NCBI GenBank assembly: GCA_900618795.1
Contig: UYJD01000015.1
Location: 441,034 to 505,033 of the forward strand
Source: Cyanodermella asteris
Taxonomy: Eukaryota > Ascomycota > Lecanoromycetes > Ostropales > Stictidaceae
Reading direction: 5' to 3'
Length of the DNA stretch: 64,000 nucleotides
The notes under the pieces are model-generated. The model did not search any database. It saw nothing but the letters and a program-made list of their open reading frames with translations, and was not told the origin of the DNA. Below are positions 8,575 to 41,130 of the stretch, in pieces (within the stretch, counting starts at the first letter, position 1; each line of letters opens with the position of its first letter). Position numbers and translations under genes: made by a program.

Positions 8575-9772
8575 TTACAGCTTGGCCTTGTTGTTGACGA
8601 TGGTCGCGGAGCCTTCCCTCAACAGAGAGACGGCAGTGTCAACCATGTCGTCGATGATGGCCTTGGCGGGCAATCTTTCGTTGACAACAGCAGATGCCTT
8701 GCCCATCAAGTACGGCCGGGCGTTGTCGAGAGTCTCGTCATCGATGTCGTCGGCCAAGTTCTCGAAGTCGTGCTCGACCGGGATGGTGCCCTGAGAGGTG
8801 AGCTTCTTGATCTCGTCCTGACGGTTCTCCTCCCAGTTCTGGATGTACGCGTTGTTGCGGACACGGAGCGGTCGGCCCGTGAAGATGATGGTGCGGACGT
8901 TGTCGTCGAAGCCAGCTGTTTGGACAGCCTCCTGGTGAGCCTTGGGGGCACCCGCCTCCTCGGACAGAACGAAGCGGGTACCGACCCAGACGGCGCTGGC
9001 GCCCAACATGAGCGAAGCAGCCAGTCCGCGGCCATCGAAGATACCGCCAGCGGCAACGAGTTGAACTGGCTTCTTCGTCAACGGGCTAACATGGCCCTGG
9101 ATGAGCTTGGCGCAAGCTGGGATCAAGACGGTCGTGGGAACGTCACCGGTGTGTCCTCCACCCTCGCCACCCTGAGCGCAAATGATATCGGCGCCGATGT
9201 CGAGGCACTTCTTGACGTGCTTGGGGTGTCCGATCATGTTCATGTACAGGATGCCGTGCTCGTGCAACTCGTCGACGACCTGCTTGGGCGGGACACCGAC
9301 GGCGGAGACGAACAGCGAAGCCTTCTCTTCGATGATGATATCGACCAGCTCGCCGAGCTTTCCCTTGGTGTAGTCGTAGTTGGTCTTGCGGGCGCTGCCG
9401 CCGACCTGGGGGAGCAGCAGGTCGACACCGAACGGCGCGTTCTTGTCCTTGAGGAAGCCCTTGAGTTCGGCAATCTGCTCACGGAGCATGTCGGGGGTGT
9501 AACTGTATTCAGTGTCAGTCCACGCTCGTTCTCATCCTGTTCTACTAGTTGGACGGCAAACGTACCCAACGCCACCAATGACACCGATGCCACCGGCGTT
9601 TGTGACGGCAGCGGCCAGCTTGGGACCGGCAGCCACGTTCATGCCTGCAAGCATGACCGGGTGCTGAATCTTCAGCAGGTCCGTGATGGTCGTTCTTATC
9701 TGCTCTGCATCGTCCGTTAGTCGAAGCAGCCATTTCGGCTTACTGGAGCAGTGACCTACGAGGAGCGGCCAT
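8575..9772 (-). CDS. Nitronate monooxygenase (2-nitropropane dioxygenase family)
   Basis: FMN-dependent TIM-barrel enzyme that oxidises alkyl nitronates. Three exons on the minus strand: 9760-9772 (MAAP...), 9566-9704 and 8575-9502, giving 359 aa. The introns (GTAGGT...CTAAC...GCAG and GTACGT...ACAG) restore the family N-terminus: KIQHPVMLAGMNVAAGP, then NAGGIGVIGG, then YTPDMLREQI. The barrel shows ICAQGGEGGGHTGD, whose His is the family's conserved catalytic-site residue, and the FMN phosphate-binding segments VAAGGIFDGRGLAASL and GASAVWVGTRF. No C-terminal peroxisomal signal is evident. The tiny first exon of 13 nt is inferred from splice signals and frame; the alternative would be a start further inside. 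A long antisense frame over the same DNA is a codon-bias shadow. Confidence 0.92.
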
Positions 9773-13025: not shown

Positions 13026-13564
13026 TTATTTCTTCGTCGCATGCTCGAGTCTCTCCATAATAGTTCGTATCTGCGACGTCAGCATGATGCCAGTCAAGCG
13101 TGTGATCAGCCTCTCACCATAGTATCATGTGCATCATCTTGCGTCTTCTTGACAAACGGCATCATCAAGAAGCTGCACCTCGTCTCGCAATCCTCCGACA
13201 ACACCAACTCCTCACTGCCGTCCTCCGCCTTGCCGACTCTCCAAGTCGAGCTCGTCGTAAGGCCCATGGGCGCCCAGACATTGGTTTTCACGCCCTCCGT
13301 CAGGTTCTCGAAGCAGGCTTGATACTCGACGGACCCTTTCCACATGCCGGCGGGAAGATATGAAATTTCGTCCGTGACTTTCTTCCACGGGAGAACTTTG
13401 TGCTCGCTCGATGCATGGCTGGGCGGCGCAATGTTCTCCACGGATATCACGAGCGGGTTGAGGCGCACGACTGTTTCATGGTCGTGCAAGATTTCGATTA
13501 CGGAGGTGGCGGCCACGCTTGGTGGGAGGCGGGTTTGCCGCTTGACTCGAGCGGTGGTGTTCAT
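13026..13564 (-). CDS. DUF7053-like conserved fungal protein
   Basis: Two exons, 13118-13564 and 13026-13070, with a 47-nt intron (GTGAGA...CGCAG). The product is 163 aa. The start, MNTTARVKRQTRLPPSVAAT, followed by VIEILHDHETVVRLNPLV, fits my memory of a small Pezizomycotina-specific family (DUF7053) with an SRPBCC-like, beta-rich helix-grip character. The conserved LHDHExVxxLNPLV, the WAPMGLTT stretch and a basic amphipathic last helix (RTIMERLEHATKK) from exon 2 support the model. Without the intron the protein would end oddly at TMVRG. The function is not known; a small-molecule or lipid-binding role is only a structural guess. It is convergent with the folate gene, with almost no spacer. 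Confidence 0.75.
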
Positions 13565-13798
13565 CGTGTAGGAAGCAAACTCACGGGAAGGCTTAAGTAT
13601 ATGACAGAAGAGAGACGTCTTTATACGTGAAGAGTATGCGATCAGAAGTCTTGTTAGAGTTCATTAGTGTTACGATCGCTCGAGGTTGGATCCCAAGGTC
13701 GGACGATCGGCTTGCCGTCACAATCGTCTTTTTGTACTTGTTGATCAAGAATGCCTTGTATGTATCATGTCGACGCTACATTTCAACGCGAACGTCCC

Positions 13799-13878
13799 CA
13801 GCTGACTACCTAGCTGAGTATCCAGCTAAGTACCCAGCCAATTACCTTGCTAAGTACTCTGCTAGTCACCTGGCGTAA
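13799..13878 (-). repeat. Degenerate 12-bp minisatellite, locus 1
   Basis: Read on the minus strand it is a run of about six imperfect 12-mers close to GGGTACTTAGCT (for example GGGTACTTAGCT, GGATACTCAGCT, AGGTAGTCAGCT). The same unit recurs at five further intergenic places in the window. Confidence 0.7.
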
Positions 13879-14072
13879 TATCCCATAAAGTATGTCAGAG
13901 CATACCTTAAAAAGTAGTCGCATTGATTTTACCACAGGTATATATTGTAATTGTCCTTATGGTTTTATGTGTGTTATAGATCGTGTCAGTCGCTCCGAAA
14001 GCTGTTCCTCGGTTGTACACCGGCTAATGATCCCTGCCCACGTTCCCCGCAGTGTGAGAGAGAAAGAAAAAG

Positions 14073-14081
14073 AAAAAAAAA
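14073..14081 (-). terminator. Pol III terminator of tRNA-Asp
   Basis: Nine A on the plus strand, hence a T9 run on the transcript strand, 20 nt beyond the tRNA 3' end. This is longer than the T5-T6 usually sufficient in fungi. Confidence 0.8.
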
Positions 14082-14101
14082 GTTTGTCTCGCGACAGTTG
14101 T

Positions 14102-14237
14102 CTCTCGCGCCGGGAATCGAACCCGGGCCGTCCGCGTTTTGATGTCGAATGACAAGCGGAAACTGGGAGGTGTTAGCGCCTGCAGATGGCTTTGTAAGGT
14201 GGGTTGATCGTACTCATAACCACTAGACTACGCAAGA
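14102..14237 (-). tRNA. tRNA-Asp(GUC) with two insertions
   Basis: Acceptor stem TCTTGCG / CGCGAGA pairs fully (one G-U). The A box is TAGTCTAGTGG and the B box GGTTCGATTCC; both match consensus. Anticodon stem TCCGC / GCGGA, loop TTGTCA...C with anticodon GTC, T arm CCGGG TTCGATT CCCGG, discriminator G. A 13-nt intron (14137-14149) sits at the canonical site after position 37. A second, 51-nt insert (14163-14213) separates the D arm from the anticodon stem. With both removed the tRNA is 72 nt and has G18G19, U33 and the TTCGA of the T loop. D-stem pairs are then G10-U25, U11-A24 and C12-G23. The intact promoter boxes, stems and a T9 terminator argue against a decayed copy, although a disrupted gene cannot be excluded. 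Confidence 0.85.
14163..14213 (-). other. 51-nt spliceosomal-intron-like insert inside the tRNA-Asp gene
   Basis: On the transcript strand it begins GTACGATC, carries GCTAAC with the branch-like A 10 nt before the 3' end, and ends CTCCCAG. Length, 5' site, branch-like site and 3' site all equal those of the protein-coding introns in this window. It lies between nucleotides 24 and 25 of the tRNA, where tRNA splicing endonuclease introns are not expected. Confidence 0.7.
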
Positions 14238-15000
14238 TGTAGCTAACTGAGTAACTGTAGTCGATGCTACCAGCCAGAGTAAACAATAAATGCAACACCA
14301 GAAAAACACACTACTGGAGCGGCCTTGACGAGTCCACAACGTGAAACAACGCAGATCATCGCCTTGGGAGGGGCAGCGTGACGCAAGGAGACAACGGAGG
14401 GCACTGTGAAAGAGACAGAAGAAGACACATGAGAAATATGGGCACATGGTCAGAAAAAGGGAGTGGAGATTGGGGTGAAAAATGGGTCACACGTCGGCAA
14501 CGCAAGTGCATTATCGTAAATCGAACAATAACCTGGCAGCAAAAACAGAAGGACTATGCAATGCGCAATCTTCGACATCAAAATGAGAGTTTGCACAACT
14601 GAAGCTGCAAACGCACTTGTCGCATGGTGCGGCCTCAGGATAGTTCGGCGGCCACTCTCAGCGGCCCCAGCAGCAACCAACCCCTGAGACACGAGTGCAC
14701 AACTCATTGCGCGCTGAGTGCCATGGAACAAAGAAGAATTACGAGCAAACTACTTACGACTTTCAAGATTCGAATTTTGGAAAGTCGTGAGATGGTGCAC
14801 AAGCAGGGGATTGCTCATTGCGAATGCATTCGAGCACTGAGTCTAGCGCAACAGCTGCTCATGTATGATACAGGGCAAGGCGGCGAGGGCGGGTAGAAAG
14901 AAGTCCTCCCCCGCGGCCTCCGTGATTCGTTCCAACATTTTACAGCGACTGCATCACGTAGCTTCGGTGTATCAAGACACTAAGCTGGCGAGTTCACTCG
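14238..15000. other. Intergenic, no supported gene
   Basis: Upstream flank of tRNA-Asp and spacer to the next minisatellite. At 14890-14911 a purine-rich GCGGGTAGAAAGAAGTCC sequence is a weak inverted copy of a motif that follows the arrays at 15 kb and 31 kb. Confidence 0.5.
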
Positions 15001-15002
15001 AT

Positions 15003-15180
15003 TCCTGCCTGGATACCTGATTAGATACTTGGCAGGATACTTGTCTCGGCACCAAATTGGTCAGCTAAATAGGCAGCTCGCTGGGTAGTCATCTGGGTAA
15101 TTAGTTAGGTAGTTAGGTGGGTGGCCAGCTGAATGATTGGTTGGATGTCCAGCGGGGCACTCGCTAACACGACCGAACAG
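15003..15180 (+). repeat. Degenerate 12-bp minisatellite, locus 2
   Basis: About 13 units that keep 12-bp spacing while diverging strongly (TAGATACTTGGC, AGGATACTTGTC, TGGGTAGTCATC, TAGGTAGTTAGG and so on). Directly after it (15189-15210) lies GCGGCGGCTTCTTTCCTCCC, shared with the flank of locus 3. Confidence 0.65.
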
Positions 15181-15633
15181 GACACCGCGCGGCGGCTTCT
15201 TTCCTCCCGCAGTGAGCGGGACATTCATTCAATAAGTAGGTAGTATTTCCACCTCTTTACATCGACTACAGCTACATGGTTAGCTACACCTTGCGTGTGT
15301 CTAGTGGATAGCTCTTGCTTGTAGGTAAAATCTGCCAAAGTGGCTACGGACACGGCAGTAAACGAAGCTGGACAATGTCAGAATCGTGATCGGCAGAATA
15401 CCCTGTGATGCCTCTCTTTCGCACTTGCAGCGCATCGACACCAACCCTTCGTAGCCCAGTCGGCGTAGAACGCCGACTCATCACGCCGCAACCAACTCAG
15501 CCCAGAACATGCAACTTGGACACTTTGCCCACTCAGCACCTTCGTCACCTCAACTTCAGCAATTCACACAAACTTCATAGACCATCTTGACCGAGCCCAC
15601 GGTCTCGAATTTCTTACCACGAGAGATTCCACC
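15181..15633. other. Promoter and 5' UTR region of the thioredoxin gene
   Basis: About 450 bp, becoming C-rich and pyrimidine-rich towards the ATG (CCACC before the start codon). No gene is seen. Confidence 0.5.
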
Positions 15634-16313
15634 ATGGCCAAACCAACGCACATTAGCTCCCAGGCCGAGTTCCAGAAGACGCTATCCTCCAATATAGTCG
15701 TCGTCGCCGATTTCTACGCAGACTGGTGCGGTCCATGCAAAGCCATCGCACCTGCATTCGACTCCTTGTGCGCAGCTGAGTCGAAGCCGGGCAAAGTTGC
15801 ATTCGTCAAGATCGACGTCGACCGCCAGCAGGACATTGCGAGGCAGTACAGCGTCAGCGCGTAAGTGAAGCATCCATCCACTCACACAGTCCATTTCAAG
15901 CCCTCTGTCCACATACGGCTTTCAATCTTGCCTCGATTCGCTCTTGGTGGAAAGCTAACAAGTTCAGTATGCCCACGTTCCTCATCTTCTTTAAGAAGTC
16001 GGTTCGCGACACCGTGCGCGGCGCAAACCAGCAGGCTCTTCGCTCCGCAGTCAACACCGCCGTCGCGGCAATTGGCAAGAACTCGTTTGGCTCAAGCGGT
16101 CGAACTCTAGGAGGCGAGGGCACTGCTTCAGCTACCGTTGGCGGCCCATCTGCCTTCTCTAGTGAAAGCTGGGCGGAGCGCATCCCTTCCGGGTACTTGG
16201 GCTCGCTGACCCGGTTTGTGGGTCTCTATTTCACCACGCTGCTGACCCTCGACCCCAAGGATGCGGCGGAGACGAGTCCTTTCAGGGCGGATGCTTCACG
16301 ACGAGTGCGATGA
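15634..16313 (+). CDS. Thioredoxin with C-terminal extension
   Basis: Two exons, 15634-15860 and 15968-16313, around an intron GTAAGT...TTCAG; 190 aa. The thioredoxin fold covers residues 1 to about 110. It has the active site ADWCGPCK (Cys32 and Cys35) and the cis-proline motif AMPTF formed exactly at the exon junction, which confirms the splice. The remaining 80 residues are not part of classical thioredoxin (about 105 aa). They include a Ser/Gly/Ala-rich linker and a hydrophobic segment YLGSLTRFVGLYFTTLLTL that could bind a membrane or pack on the domain. Related long thioredoxin-like proteins are common in filamentous fungi. Role: thiol-disulfide exchange in the cytosol; the partner is unknown. 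Confidence 0.88.
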
Positions 16314-28515: not shown

Positions 28516-30577
28516 ATGGCTTTGTTGGAGCGTCAGTGGATCAATGTGCAGGAGAAGACATTTACGAAATGGTGTGTATCCCATGTTCTTGTTGTGCTTC
28601 GACGCTGACCACAATTGTAGGCTCAATTCGAAGATCAAGGTCCGCAATGTCAAGGTCAACGACCTGGTCAAGGATCTGTCCGACGGCATCATGCTCATAC
28701 ACCTACTCGAAGTCCTATCAAATGAATCGCTTGGTCGATATGCTTCCAAACCGAAGCTGCGGGTTCAGAAGTTCGAGAACGTTAGCATATCGATCGAGTT
28801 CATCAAGATGCATGGGATACAACTGACAAATATCGGCCCGGAGGACGTGGTGGATGGTAATCGAAAGATCATTCTTGGTCTCATCTGGACACTCATTCTC
28901 CGGTTTACAATCACAGACATTAATGAGGAGGGCATGACAGCAAAGGAGGGTCTACTCTTATGGTGTCAACGGAAAACGGCGTGCTACGACGAGGTAGAGG
29001 TTCGAGACTTCTCATCAAGTTGGAATGATGGACTAGCATTCTGTGCGCTTCTGGACATACACCGACCTGATCTGATTGATTACGACACCCTTGACAAGAA
29101 CGATCATAAGGGCAACATGAAGTTGGCGTTCCAGATTGCGAGCGAAGAGATTGGCATCCCGGATCTGCTGGATGTCGAAGATGTGTGCGATGTCCCTAAG
29201 CCGGATGAACGATCACTGATGACGTATATTGCTTATTGGTTTCATGCATTTTCTCAAATGGAGAAGGTCGAGAATGCTGGACGAAGAGTGGAGAAATTCG
29301 TTTCGAATATGCACGGCGCTTGGGAGATGCAGAACTCATACGAAAGGAGGATGCGCGAGCTGCTGCATCAGCTCAGAACCCAGCGCGAGACATGGGATCA
29401 GGGTCAATTCCAGGGCACATACCAGGACGCCAAGGGCCAGTTGTCTTTGTTGACACAATTCAAGCGTGGAGACAAGAGGAACTGGGTGGGTGAGAAGAGT
29501 GAGCTTGCCGCGTTGTTTGGCAACATCAAGACGAAGATGAGCACATACCAATTGCGACCCTGGGATCCACCACCGGAGTTGAGACTGGAGGCTCTGGACC
29601 AGGAATGGGCCAATCTGATGTCCGCCGAGCGCAAACGTGCCCAGGTCATCAACGAGACGATCAGAGACATCAAGAACTCCTTACGACGAACATTTGCGGA
29701 TAAGGCCAACGATTTTGCTCTCACCCTCAACACACTCATGCTGGCGCTTTCTGGTCTGGAAGGCGAGGTCGAGGATCAGCTTGAGCATGCTAGACGTCTT
29801 GAGGCGAACTTGTCTCCTCTTGACCAATATTTGGAGTCGGTAGAAGATCTTGATGCGCAGTGTGCCGAGGCAAACATTGAGGAGAATGACTTTACCACCT
29901 ACACCTATGACGAGTTGGCATACGAATTGTCTCTCGTCAAGTCAGCCATTAGCAAAAAGCTGAGATTCCTGGAGAACCAGCTGGTCGCGCGAGGAAACAC
30001 GACGAACTTGACACCCATACAGCTTGAGGAGTTTGAGTCCGTGTTCCGACATTTTGATCGCGATGGCTCAAACACCTTGAATGAGGTCGAGTTCTCTGCA
30101 GCTCTCGCGTCGCTGGGCTTGGTATACGATCAGGACGAGATGCACGAGACTTTCGTCGAAGCTAGCCAAGGCCGAAACAGTCGTCATGTCGACTTTGAGG
30201 GTTTCATCAAATTCATGGTGGGTGTCACTGAGGATCAGAATACGGCAGAGCAAGTTTTCCAGAGTTTCCAAGAAGTCGCAGACGGCAAGCCATATGTCAC
30301 GGAGGTCGACTTACGGCACAGCTTGATTCCTGACGAGCTTATTGAGCAACTTGGCCAGAGCATGCCAGCGTATACGGGTCCCGATCTGGCCGAGGACCGT
30401 GGCTTGCCCAAGTATGATTATGTGACTTTCATGGAAAAGATGATCACAGCAGAGAAAGAGAAAGGATCGAAGACTGGCCAGCAGGGCAACAACGGTACGG
30501 CGAAAGTGGAAGGAAAGGAGAATGCGCCGCTGAACGGAGCGCGGTCGCAGAGTCCCTCGAAAAGCATCTCTGGTTAG
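28516..30577 (+). CDS. Alpha-actinin
   Basis: Actin cross-linking protein needed for contractile rings and septation in filamentous fungi. Exons 28516-28571 and 28621-30577 with a 49-nt intron; 670 aa. The splice gives QEKTFTKW-LNSKIKVRNV, the conserved start of CH1. Two calponin-homology domains occupy about 8-115 and 125-235 (IILGLIWTLILRFTI; KEGLLLWCQRKTACYDEVEV; DFSSSWNDGLAFCALLD). A short rod of about two spectrin-like repeats follows (about 240-520), then an EF-hand region (FDRDGSNTLNEVEF near 535; later hand degenerate), and a low-complexity tail rich in Lys, Gln, Asn and Ser. The short rod is typical of fungal alpha-actinin versus four repeats in animals. Confidence 0.95.
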
Positions 30578-32519: not shown

Positions 32520-32862
32520 CGAGCGTACCTGAAGTGTTTACGAGGGCACCTGCTAAGGTATCTGCTCAGGTGTTTGCTCGGGTATTTGTAAGGCACTTGC
32601 TCAGGTACTTGCTCAAGTACTTGTCCAGGCACTTGCTCAAGTACTTGTCTAGGTACTTGTTCAGGTACTTGCTCAGGTACTTGCTTAGGTACTTACTCAG
32701 GTACTTGCTCAGATACTTGCTCGTGTATTTGCATAGGTACTTGCTTAGGTACTTGCTCGTGTATTTGCATAGGTACTTGCTTAGGTACTTGCTTAGGTAC
32801 TTGCTTAGGTACTTGCTTAGGTACTTGCTTAGATACTTGCTCGTATACTTACTTGTCACGGA
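32520..32862 (+). repeat. 12-bp minisatellite GGTACTTGCTTA, locus 4
   Basis: The most regular member of the family: about 27 consecutive 12-mers, mainly GGTACTTGCTTA or GGTACTTGCTCA, with GTGTATTTGCAT variants that themselves recur as a higher-order pair. Because 12 is a multiple of three, every frame without a stop stays open. This explains the YLLR and SKYL tetrapeptide frames on both strands; no protein is implied. Confidence 0.92.
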
Positions 32863-33474: not shown

Positions 33475-33584
33475 GCTTGGCTGGCTCAGTTGGTTAGAGC
33501 GCCGGTCTCATACGTTAAATGTATGACCAGGAGTAAACTCCCTTGGATATCCGGAGATCACCAGTTCGATCCTGGTGCCGAGCA
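33475..33584 (+). tRNA. tRNA-Met(CAU), elongator type, with 36-nt intron
   Basis: Acceptor stem GCTTGGC / GCCGAGC (seven pairs, one G-U). D arm GCTC / GAGC with AGTTGGTTA loop. Anticodon stem CCGG / CCGG with loop CTCATAA (the 31-39 pair is T-T, common in tRNA-Met). T arm ACCAG TTCGATC CTGGT, discriminator A. The 36-nt intron (33513-33548) lies at the canonical place after position 37. The G1-C72 pair and the T loop argue for the elongator rather than the initiator. Confidence 0.93.
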
Positions 33585-39029: not shown

Positions 39030-40691
39030 ATGCAGAGAGAACGCGAAGCGGCCATTGGCAAAAGCCTGCAGGAGCTCAGCACTCCAGCAGTGATCATTGA
39101 CCGCGCGGTGGTGAGGAGGAACTGTGAGCAGATGTTGACAATGACTGACAAGATCGGGGTTGCGTTTCGTGCGCACATCAAGACACAAGGTGAGACCGAG
39201 GTTTGACCCGAAAGACCATCATCACGATATGAGCAAAAGATGTGCGTTGCGAAACAAGATGTATTTCCTTCGTGTATCTACTTCACAAGAGCCATATCTC
39301 ATCTTTCATGGTACTCATCTCACATTCTCAGACCGTTGAAGGTACCGAACTCATGGCTGGCGGACCCAGCTCAACCCGCCCGATCAGCCTTATAGTCTCG
39401 ACAACTCTCGAGCTCGAACACATCGCAGCCTGGCTCAAGACGCAAAAGTCTGCAGGCCGGGCCATCAACGTCCTGTACGGGGTACCGCTCCCGATTCACA
39501 AAATCGATACATTGCTCTCCCTCCGCGAGCAGCTCGGCCCTAGCTCCATCTCCGTCATGATCGATCACCCAGCCCAACTGGACGCCCTTCAGAAGACTCC
39601 AGCTCTGAAGCCAAAAGCTTTTATCAAGATCGACACGGGCTACGGACGAGCCGGCGTACCGCATTCACCCGAGAGTGTCAGCCTGAGGGCTCTGCTGAAG
39701 CGGATGCAGGAGGGTCAGGAGGGTGGCTATGTTGAATTCGCGGGACTCTACTCGCACGGTGGAGACTCGTACGGGGTCAATTCGTTCGAGGAGGCGTTTG
39801 AGATATTGGCACGGGAGCTGAAGGGTCTTCAAGAGGCAGCGCAGATTGCGAAGGAGGAGGGACTAAAGCCTGGCCAGGGCGAGAGGGGCTTTGTGCTAAG
39901 CATAGGTGCAACGCCGACGATCAGTACCGCGTGGATGAATGCGGACTTGCAGGTTCAGAACGGCGAAGTGCCTGAGATGATCAAGAAGCTGCACAGCGAC
40001 GGGCACACCGTCGAGTGAGTATTGTCCCGTCTCTCCCCTCTCAGGTCCATCCTTCCATACCCTCGTCGAGGCGAACTGACGATTCCTTTCTAGATTCCAC
40101 GCGGGCAACTACCCCATTCTCGACATGCAACAAATCGCCACCTCCGCCGGCGCCTCCTCCATGATCGACATGCCCTCCGCCTCCTACTACAAAGGCCGAC
40201 AAGTCTCCGACCTCTCCATGACCATCCTTGCCGAAATCAACAGCTCCTACTCCGAGCGCGCCGACGACGAACGCCTCATCACCGCCGGTTGCCTGGCCCT
40301 CGGCCGCGAACCTTGCAAGTCCTATCCTGGCTGGGGCGTCGTCAGCGAATGGCCGCACGGCAGCACTGGCACAAGGGGTGGAATTCTACGCGGAAGCGGC
40401 TGGTTCGTGCACATGATTAGCCAGGAGCATGGGCGGATTAAGAAGGGCCGTGTCGATGGCGTGCCGGCGCCGGAAGAGAAGGGGGAGGGCGGGATGATTG
40501 AGGATGTGCTTGAGGGGGCAAAGGAGCCGGAACGGCCGATTGATTGGAAGGTCGGGGATAAGGTAAGGATTTGGCCGAACCTTGCGTGTATTGCCTGTGC
40601 GAATTATTCCCATGTTTATGTTGTTGATGGTGAGGATGAGAGTAAGGGAGAGAAGGTTGTGGATGTTTGGGAACGGTGCGTTGGGTGGTAA
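39030..40691 (+). pseudogene. D-serine dehydratase / D-threonine aldolase family, probably damaged
   Basis: PLP- and zinc-dependent fold-type III enzyme (alanine-racemase-like N-domain, DSD-type C-domain). Exons: 39030 to about 39189, 39332-40014 and 40094-40691. Seen: LSTPAVIIDRAVVRRN, the PLP-lysine segment GVAFRAHIKT, IKIDTGYGRAGVP, FAGLYSHGGDSYG, LSIGATPT, and EFHAGNYPILDMQQIA after splice 2. Two defects stand out. At the first junction the family reads KTHK-T; here the DNA reads AAGACACAAG-GT, which fits loss of one AC pair, so exon 1 (phase 1) and exon 2 (phase 0) do not match. In the C-terminal zinc motif the family PNHAC is PNLAC, losing the His ligand. The rest is intact, so the decay is recent, or the first defect is a sequencing error. 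If the frame is real, the gene is nonfunctional. Confidence 0.7.
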
Positions 40692-41130
40692 TGAATGAAA
40701 CAAGTTGCATGGCATACTAGCTGTTTGGTCAAGTTGAGGGACAGAAAGAGTCATGGAGGGATTGTGCTTGAATGAGTTTGTCGTGTATATCTCCTGGAAA
40801 GGTTGTGACCCTGTTCGTTGTCGTCGCGTTGCTTTCCAACGGCTCGTCCCCATCACCAAAGCTTCAATTTAACCGTGTATGGTGACATGCGTCGCTTGTG
40901 AGCATCGCGGTACTGGCCATATCAGGCCTTGTCCCCGTGTAGGAGGCGAGTCATTCTGGTGCTGGTAATAAGTGCGCCTTCAGGTTCGAGTCAGGCCCTT
41001 AAAGCGAACTAAGGTTGTCGGCTTGCGGGCATGCACCAGTCGCATTTGGAACAGCCTCAAGTATCTACCTGCTTCAGCTATCAAGCTCTGGCTCATAATT
41101 TTGCAGCGGAGGATGGTTCACGAAGAAGCT
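40692..41130. other. Intergenic, no supported gene
   Basis: 3' flank of the D-serine dehydratase-like gene up to the minisatellite. A GGTTCGAGTCA sequence at 40983 resembles a B box, but no cloverleaf can be folded around it. Confidence 0.5.

Follow-up and report, generated by a model that had tools for sequence, protein, structure and literature searches.

The 64,000-nt stretch of Cyanodermella asteris contig UYJD01000015.1 analysed here (the window) contains a gene for tRNA-Asp(GUC) that is interrupted twice. The gene lies on the minus strand (14237..14102) and, by direct reading, ARAGORN and a count of cloverleaf features, measures 136 nt unspliced and 72 nt mature without CCA. Exon 1 (14237-14214, minus strand, as are all parts of the gene) supplies tRNA nucleotides 1-24, comprising the 5' strand of the acceptor stem and most of the D arm. 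It is followed, between nucleotides 24 and 25, by a 51-nt insert (14213-14163) that resembles a spliceosomal intron and was delimited from its signals, the cloverleaf count and an intron model. This insert begins GTACGATC, with the 5' site GTACGA, and finishes GGCGCTAACACCTCCCAG, ending in CAG (full sequence GTACGATCAACCCACCTTACAAAGCCATCTGCAGGCGCTAACACCTCCCAG). A putative branch site, CTAAC (14172..14176, branch A at 14173), leaves 9 nt to the intron end. Exon 2 (14162-14150) holds nucleotides 25-37, namely U25, which can pair with G10, the 5' strand of the anticodon stem, the anticodon GUC and A37. A canonical 13-nt tRNA intron, TTCGACATCAAAA (14149-14137), placed at 37/38 by ARAGORN and the cloverleaf count, separates it from exon 3 (14136-14102; nucleotides 38-73), which comprises C38, the 3' strand of the anticodon stem, a 4-nt variable loop, the T arm, the 3' strand of the acceptor stem and G73.

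Signals for RNA polymerase III (Pol III) are in place around both interruptions. The A box, TAGTCTAGTGG (nucleotides 8-19; 14220..14230), lies unbroken upstream of the 51-nt insert, and the B box, GGTTCGATTCC (14113..14123), is likewise unbroken; both were recognized by reading against the generally known consensus. A run of nine T (14081-14073), read as the Pol III terminator, comes after a 20-nt trailer. Once both introns are removed, the identity elements of yeast tRNA-Asp (G34, U35, C36, G73 and the G10-U25 pair) are all present. The 13-nt intron also allows the pairings typical of ordinary eukaryotic tRNA introns, in that its GAC is able to pair with the anticodon GUC, and the A at intron position -3 can form the A-I pair with U32. 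The gene and its insert are confirmed as observed, far above chance. A sequence-only reading had described a gene for tRNA-Asp(GUC) with both promoter boxes, a T9 terminator, a normal 13-nt intron after position 37 and a separate 51-nt insert between nucleotides 24 and 25, and all of this is borne out by our reading, the cloverleaf count (20/21 stem pairs) and, for the short intron, ARAGORN once the 51 nt are deleted. The same reading had placed the branch motif 10 nt before the end, which holds as the distance from the branch A.

One side observation concerns the 3' end of the gene. The heptamer CGCGAGA of the acceptor 3' strand (14109-14103) recurs in the 20-nt trailer, inside TCGCGAGA at 14094-14087 on the minus strand. 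As the trailer (within 14082-14109) thereby repeats the acceptor 3' strand, it could compete for the 5' strand of the acceptor stem.

Rfam at the gathering cut-off did not report the tRNA-Asp gene anywhere in the whole window, and a low-threshold Rfam scan of 13900-14450 gave two sub-threshold matches, each covering the T arm only. ARAGORN run without introns made no call for the gene; the same mode also missed an intron-bearing tRNA-Met, so its miss of tRNA-Asp is not specific. When introns were allowed, ARAGORN read the unspliced gene as a poor tRNA-Gly(tcc), which is ruled out by a mismatch in the anticodon stem and a variable region that is far too long. After deletion of the 51 nt, it returned tRNA-Asp(gtc) of 72 nt with a 13-nt intron. 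By eye, a tRNA elsewhere in the window (33475-33584, plus strand; Rfam 49.8 bits) is a tRNA-Met(CAU) whose anticodon loop holds a long intron and whose D arm carries no insert. A pattern scan of the window for further hidden tRNAs, based on T arm, acceptor stem and A box, found only the tRNA-Asp gene and the tRNA at 33475.

The borders of the insert were assessed in two ways. ARAGORN was applied to 3105 trial deletions, and 1007 were called as tRNAs; a tRNA-Gly led with 115.2, and one 49-nt deletion yielding tRNA-Asp scored 113.9. ARAGORN was unable to choose among neighbouring borders, and hence a fixed cloverleaf was scored instead, with four D-loop sizes and 134 fitting deletions, in a manner blind to splice signals. 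The 51-nt GT..AG deletion was the best of the 134 (33.0 points), ahead of four others at 32.5 and one at 32.0, and it is the sole GT..AG deletion among these top six. Its exact removal restores the D-stem pairs U11-A24 and G10-U25. The resulting molecule has 20/21 stem pairs, Watson-Crick and G-U combined (acceptor 6+1, D 2+1, anticodon 5, T 5), and 14/14 of the checked conserved features. As read from the sequence, the borders preferred by the cloverleaf and those marked by the intron signals thus fit one another.

To compare the insert with mRNA introns of the window, we used a simple gene finder that yielded ten introns, nine of which were kept for an intron model; the insert took no part in building it. 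A first gene finder had been discarded, its splice model having converged on spurious GTTTTG-like introns. The nine introns are 49-126 nt long (five of 49-63 nt, four of 79-126 nt), carry CTAAC or CTGAC (CTRAC) 8-13 nt before the end and finish in CAG or TAG. The insert, with 51 nt, CTAAC and 9 nt to its end, falls within these ranges. It scores 17.5 bits on the nine-intron model, compared to leave-one-out scores of 12.8-22.5 for the nine themselves. The window contains 12,062 further GT..AG pairs 45-70 nt long; 27 score at least 17.5, and some of these 27 use a splice site that also belongs to a modelled intron. Each part of the insert has a precedent in introns of the window (GTATGA, GTACGT, AGCTAACA, CAG). 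By its gene content and its short introns with CTRAC, the organism is probably a fungus.

We also counted how often such a combination of signals arises among all 51-nt stretches of the window (127,898 on both strands, including stretches that touch a run of N and so are unable to match). GT..AG borders were found in 460 stretches, 173 also end in YAG, 15 have CTRAY near the end as well, 6 of these have G at +5, and 1 has CTAAC. The insert satisfies every step and is included in each figure. Features expected of a U2-type intron were found at the borders that the cloverleaf prefers, namely GT at the 5' end and AG at the 3' end (GTACGA ... CCCAG), together with a branch site. Taken together, these signals make the insert very likely an intron of the spliceosomal type. 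The earlier suggestion that an introner may have landed in a Pol III gene is unsupported within the window. No second copy of the insert was found in its 64 kb, and the insert matches nothing there beyond 11 identical bases outside itself.

Folding predictions bear on how such a transcript would mature. With the insert present, the optimum is -42.7 kcal/mol, whereas a cloverleaf with the insert unpaired reaches -14.5 kcal/mol, or -23.1 kcal/mol without the D stem. When only the 13-nt intron is present, the cloverleaf lies at -23.6 versus an optimum of -26.8 kcal/mol, and when both introns are absent, the two are 1 kcal/mol apart (-24.0 versus -25.0 kcal/mol). The predicted energies thus favour a different fold as long as the insert is in place. 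Energy folding was rejected as proof of the cloverleaf, being not decisive when the optimum differs even after splicing; unmodified tRNA sequences commonly lack the cloverleaf as predicted optimum.

These considerations suggest the following scheme. Pol III would transcribe the gene from its intact internal A and B boxes, and the nuclear spliceosome would excise the 51-nt U2-type GT-AG intron that interrupts the D arm. Excision would rejoin A24 to U25, restore G10-U25 and U11-A24 and permit the cloverleaf to form. The tRNA splicing endonuclease, measuring from the folded tRNA body, would then cut out the 13-nt intron at 37/38, and tRNA ligase would join the halves. Since the cloverleaf is strongly disfavoured with the insert present, the spliceosome would be expected to act first, with endonuclease cleavage at 37/38 and ligation afterwards. 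Transcription, splicing, the order of the steps and the function of the product are all projected from the gene's sequence. We consider it probable that the locus is a nuclear tRNA-Asp(GUC) gene whose insert is spliced as a U2-type intron to give a working tRNA. That maturation of the tRNA obligatorily requires two unrelated splicing systems, always one after the other (spliceosome, then endonuclease and ligase), is a more tentative proposal, which we regard as possible but doubtful.

Several observations weigh against reading the locus as a working gene with a spliceosomal intron. The gene finder's scoring pre-favoured GTRNGT, CTRAY and YAG in the modelled introns, so that the agreement of the nine on these motifs follows in part from the scoring itself. 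One of the ten modelled introns (40676-40720), which lacks CTRAY, was excluded by hand, and homology matches cross three of the other nine (nitronate monooxygenase, 9503-9565; thioredoxin, 15861-15967; alpha-actinin, 28572-28620). The 5' site of the insert, GTACGA, is suboptimal and not the commonest in the window. In this respect the sequence-only reading slightly overstated its case in calling the insert exactly like mRNA introns here, although the GT-AG borders, the branch site, a score within range and a precedent for every part all held. As to the borders, nine Asp deletions of 49-52 nt tie at 112.6 in ARAGORN, the 51-nt GT..AG deletion among them, and the lead of that deletion in the cloverleaf count is only half a point (33.0 versus 32.5 for four others). 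Given this small margin, the borders are fixed to within a few bases, with the GT..AG pair preferred. A single pair fails, U-U at D-stem position 13-22. The earlier expectation that precise GT-AG removal gives a canonical tRNA of 72 nt stands as to length, and the product ranks best of the 134, with the narrow lead and the U-U as qualifications. The predicted optimum is not the cloverleaf even for the spliced sequence, and shuffled versions of the unspliced strand fold less stably than the strand itself (z -2.20). Finally, short insertions in the D or T arm of eukaryotic tRNA genes are reported mostly from one of many synonymous copies and supposed to be pseudogenes (PMC4090602).

This last point leads to the strongest rival explanation, in which a spliceosomal-type intron, or a look-alike, recently landed in one of several tRNA-Asp genes; splicing would be inefficient, the locus silent or its RNA degraded, and intact copies would serve the cell. 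The usual interpretation of short D- and T-arm insertions as pseudogenes (PMC4090602) favours such an inactivated copy, as does a tRNA relic 1 kb away. On the other hand, the gene has no other clear damage: its boxes, terminator, canonical intron and 20/21 stem pairs are intact, and a check for decay outside the insert (lost pairs, boxes or terminator) found none save the U-U at 13-22. Moreover, that the best cloverleaf borders are GT and AG would be a rare outcome for a random insertion. We therefore judge an inactivated copy unlikely, though it is the alternative to be taken most seriously.

The relic itself (15260..15310, plus strand) is a degenerate copy in inverted orientation, covering 29 nt of upstream flank and tRNA nucleotides 1-21 (84% over 51 columns; BLAST E 1e-9 against the window). 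It indicates that pieces of tRNA-Asp have been duplicated and lost in this region. Its match to the gene ends 3 nt short of the insertion point. Local alignment gives 73 with the spliced gene versus 68 with the unspliced one, and the 22 nt that follow TCTAGTGG in the relic match the spliced gene at chance level (3907 of 20,000 random 22-mers reached the score). Downstream of the relic, no recognizable trace of the 3' half of the gene was found (score 25; 300 random stretches gave a median of 23 and a 95th percentile of 31). We considered the relic as an insert-free control and rejected it, as its sequence past the D loop matches no better than chance; for the same reason, it does not date the insert.

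A second rival holds that the 51-nt insert is another tRNA-type intron, which the tRNA splicing endonuclease would excise from a non-canonical site, like those of Cyanidioschyzon merolae, nucleomorphs and Crenarchaeota. We know of no non-canonical tRNA-type introns from fungi. At the borders of the insert, no canonical bulge-helix-bulge (a 4-bp helix between two 3-nt bulges) was found: 1/4 pairs form in the canonical register, and the only 4-bp helix among the other registers scanned, GAGT/GTTT, itself spans both borders and leaves no bulge. This explanation also leaves the GT-AG borders and the branch site unaccounted for. In its favour, D-arm introns of the endonuclease type exist in such lineages, including archaeal ones at 22/23 and 25/26 (PMC3978253, PMC4090602). 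Non-canonical tRNA introns of archaea, nucleomorphs and a red alga, which also occur in the D arm, commonly have a bulge-helix-bulge (PMC3978253, PMC4090602). Overall, a second endonuclease-type intron seems very improbable here. Equally far-fetched is the idea that a random insertion of 51 nt carries the GT-AG signals by chance or that the insert is an assembly error: there is a single locus in a single assembly, in which a 543-base run of N (1642-2184) shows that gaps occur, but GT, G at +5, CTRAY and YAG coincide in only 6 of the 127,898 51-nt stretches, the insert among the six, and the cloverleaf count, which ignores splice signals, prefers the same borders.

We found no spliceosomal intron in a nuclear tRNA gene described in the full-text literature searched, which leaves most subscription journals outside and hence is no proof of absence; to that extent our search agrees with the earlier statement that no described case was known. 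Certain fungal Pol III genes do contain mRNA-type introns, namely the U6 snRNA genes of fission yeast and some basidiomycete yeasts. These are similar in that a spliceosomal intron of ∼50 nt resides in a short Pol III transcript, but U6 is not a tRNA, and here an endonuclease-type intron that needs a folded tRNA body lies 13 nt downstream. Fungal nuclear 18S rDNA reportedly contains mRNA introns as well (Rogers et al. in 1993). There, too, a spliceosomal-type intron sits in a fungal structural RNA gene, although the host is a ribosomal RNA and a Pol I transcript. The introns of C. merolae, nucleomorphs and Crenarchaeota offer a parallel in position, as they include an extra D-arm intron, in some genes together with one at 37/38. 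However, they have varied bulge-helix-bulge motifs or are very short with a mechanism given as unknown (PMC3978253, PMC4090602), whereas the insert here has GT-AG borders and a branch site and lacks a canonical bulge-helix-bulge.

Relatives were sought with an exact 17-base D-arm pattern, which occurs in at least 119 stretches of a genome contig collection (genome_contigs) and in 9 of a viral one (viral_contigs). Among the matches listed from genome_contigs (80), 78 are archaeal and 2 bacterial, and the comparison is thus a weak control drawn from other domains of life. In 110 of the 129 occurrences of the pattern among the matches listed, the T loop follows at the plain spacing of 27-28. Inspection by eye of the first 45 bases of the other 19, several of which are not tRNAs, revealed no D-arm insert of the GT-AG kind. 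Scans of viral_contigs with the 3' end of the gene, a D-arm GT-CTRAY-AG pattern and two nearby proteins gave no relative, and no fungal relatives of the gene were found in the genome and viral contig collections searched.

Introns of eukaryotic nuclear tRNA genes lie mostly at 37/38 and are assigned to the tRNA endonuclease (PMC4090602). If the tRNA-Asp gene does carry a functional spliceosomal intron, a short Pol III pre-tRNA would prove to be a substrate for the spliceosome, intron gain would extend to tRNA genes, and the order of the two splicing steps would become testable. Such genes would also be overlooked by tRNA finders; Rfam at the gathering cut-off and ARAGORN in the modes used gave no tRNA-Asp from the unspliced sequence. 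Were maturation by two systems to prove true, the supply of an essential tRNA could be coupled to spliceosome activity, above all if this is the only or the principal gene for tRNA-Asp or if related species have retained the insert.

The surroundings of the tRNA region include low-complexity sequence on both sides, with units resembling CAGCTGAGTA at 13797-13871 (reported as tandem repeats) and at ∼15020-15170 (seen by eye). A neighbouring reading frame on the minus strand (13106-13660) matches the Pfam family DUF7053 (E 5.6e-47). Farther away, a 12-nt tandem repeat at 32551-32842 comprises 24.4 copies of the consensus TGCTCAGGTACT.
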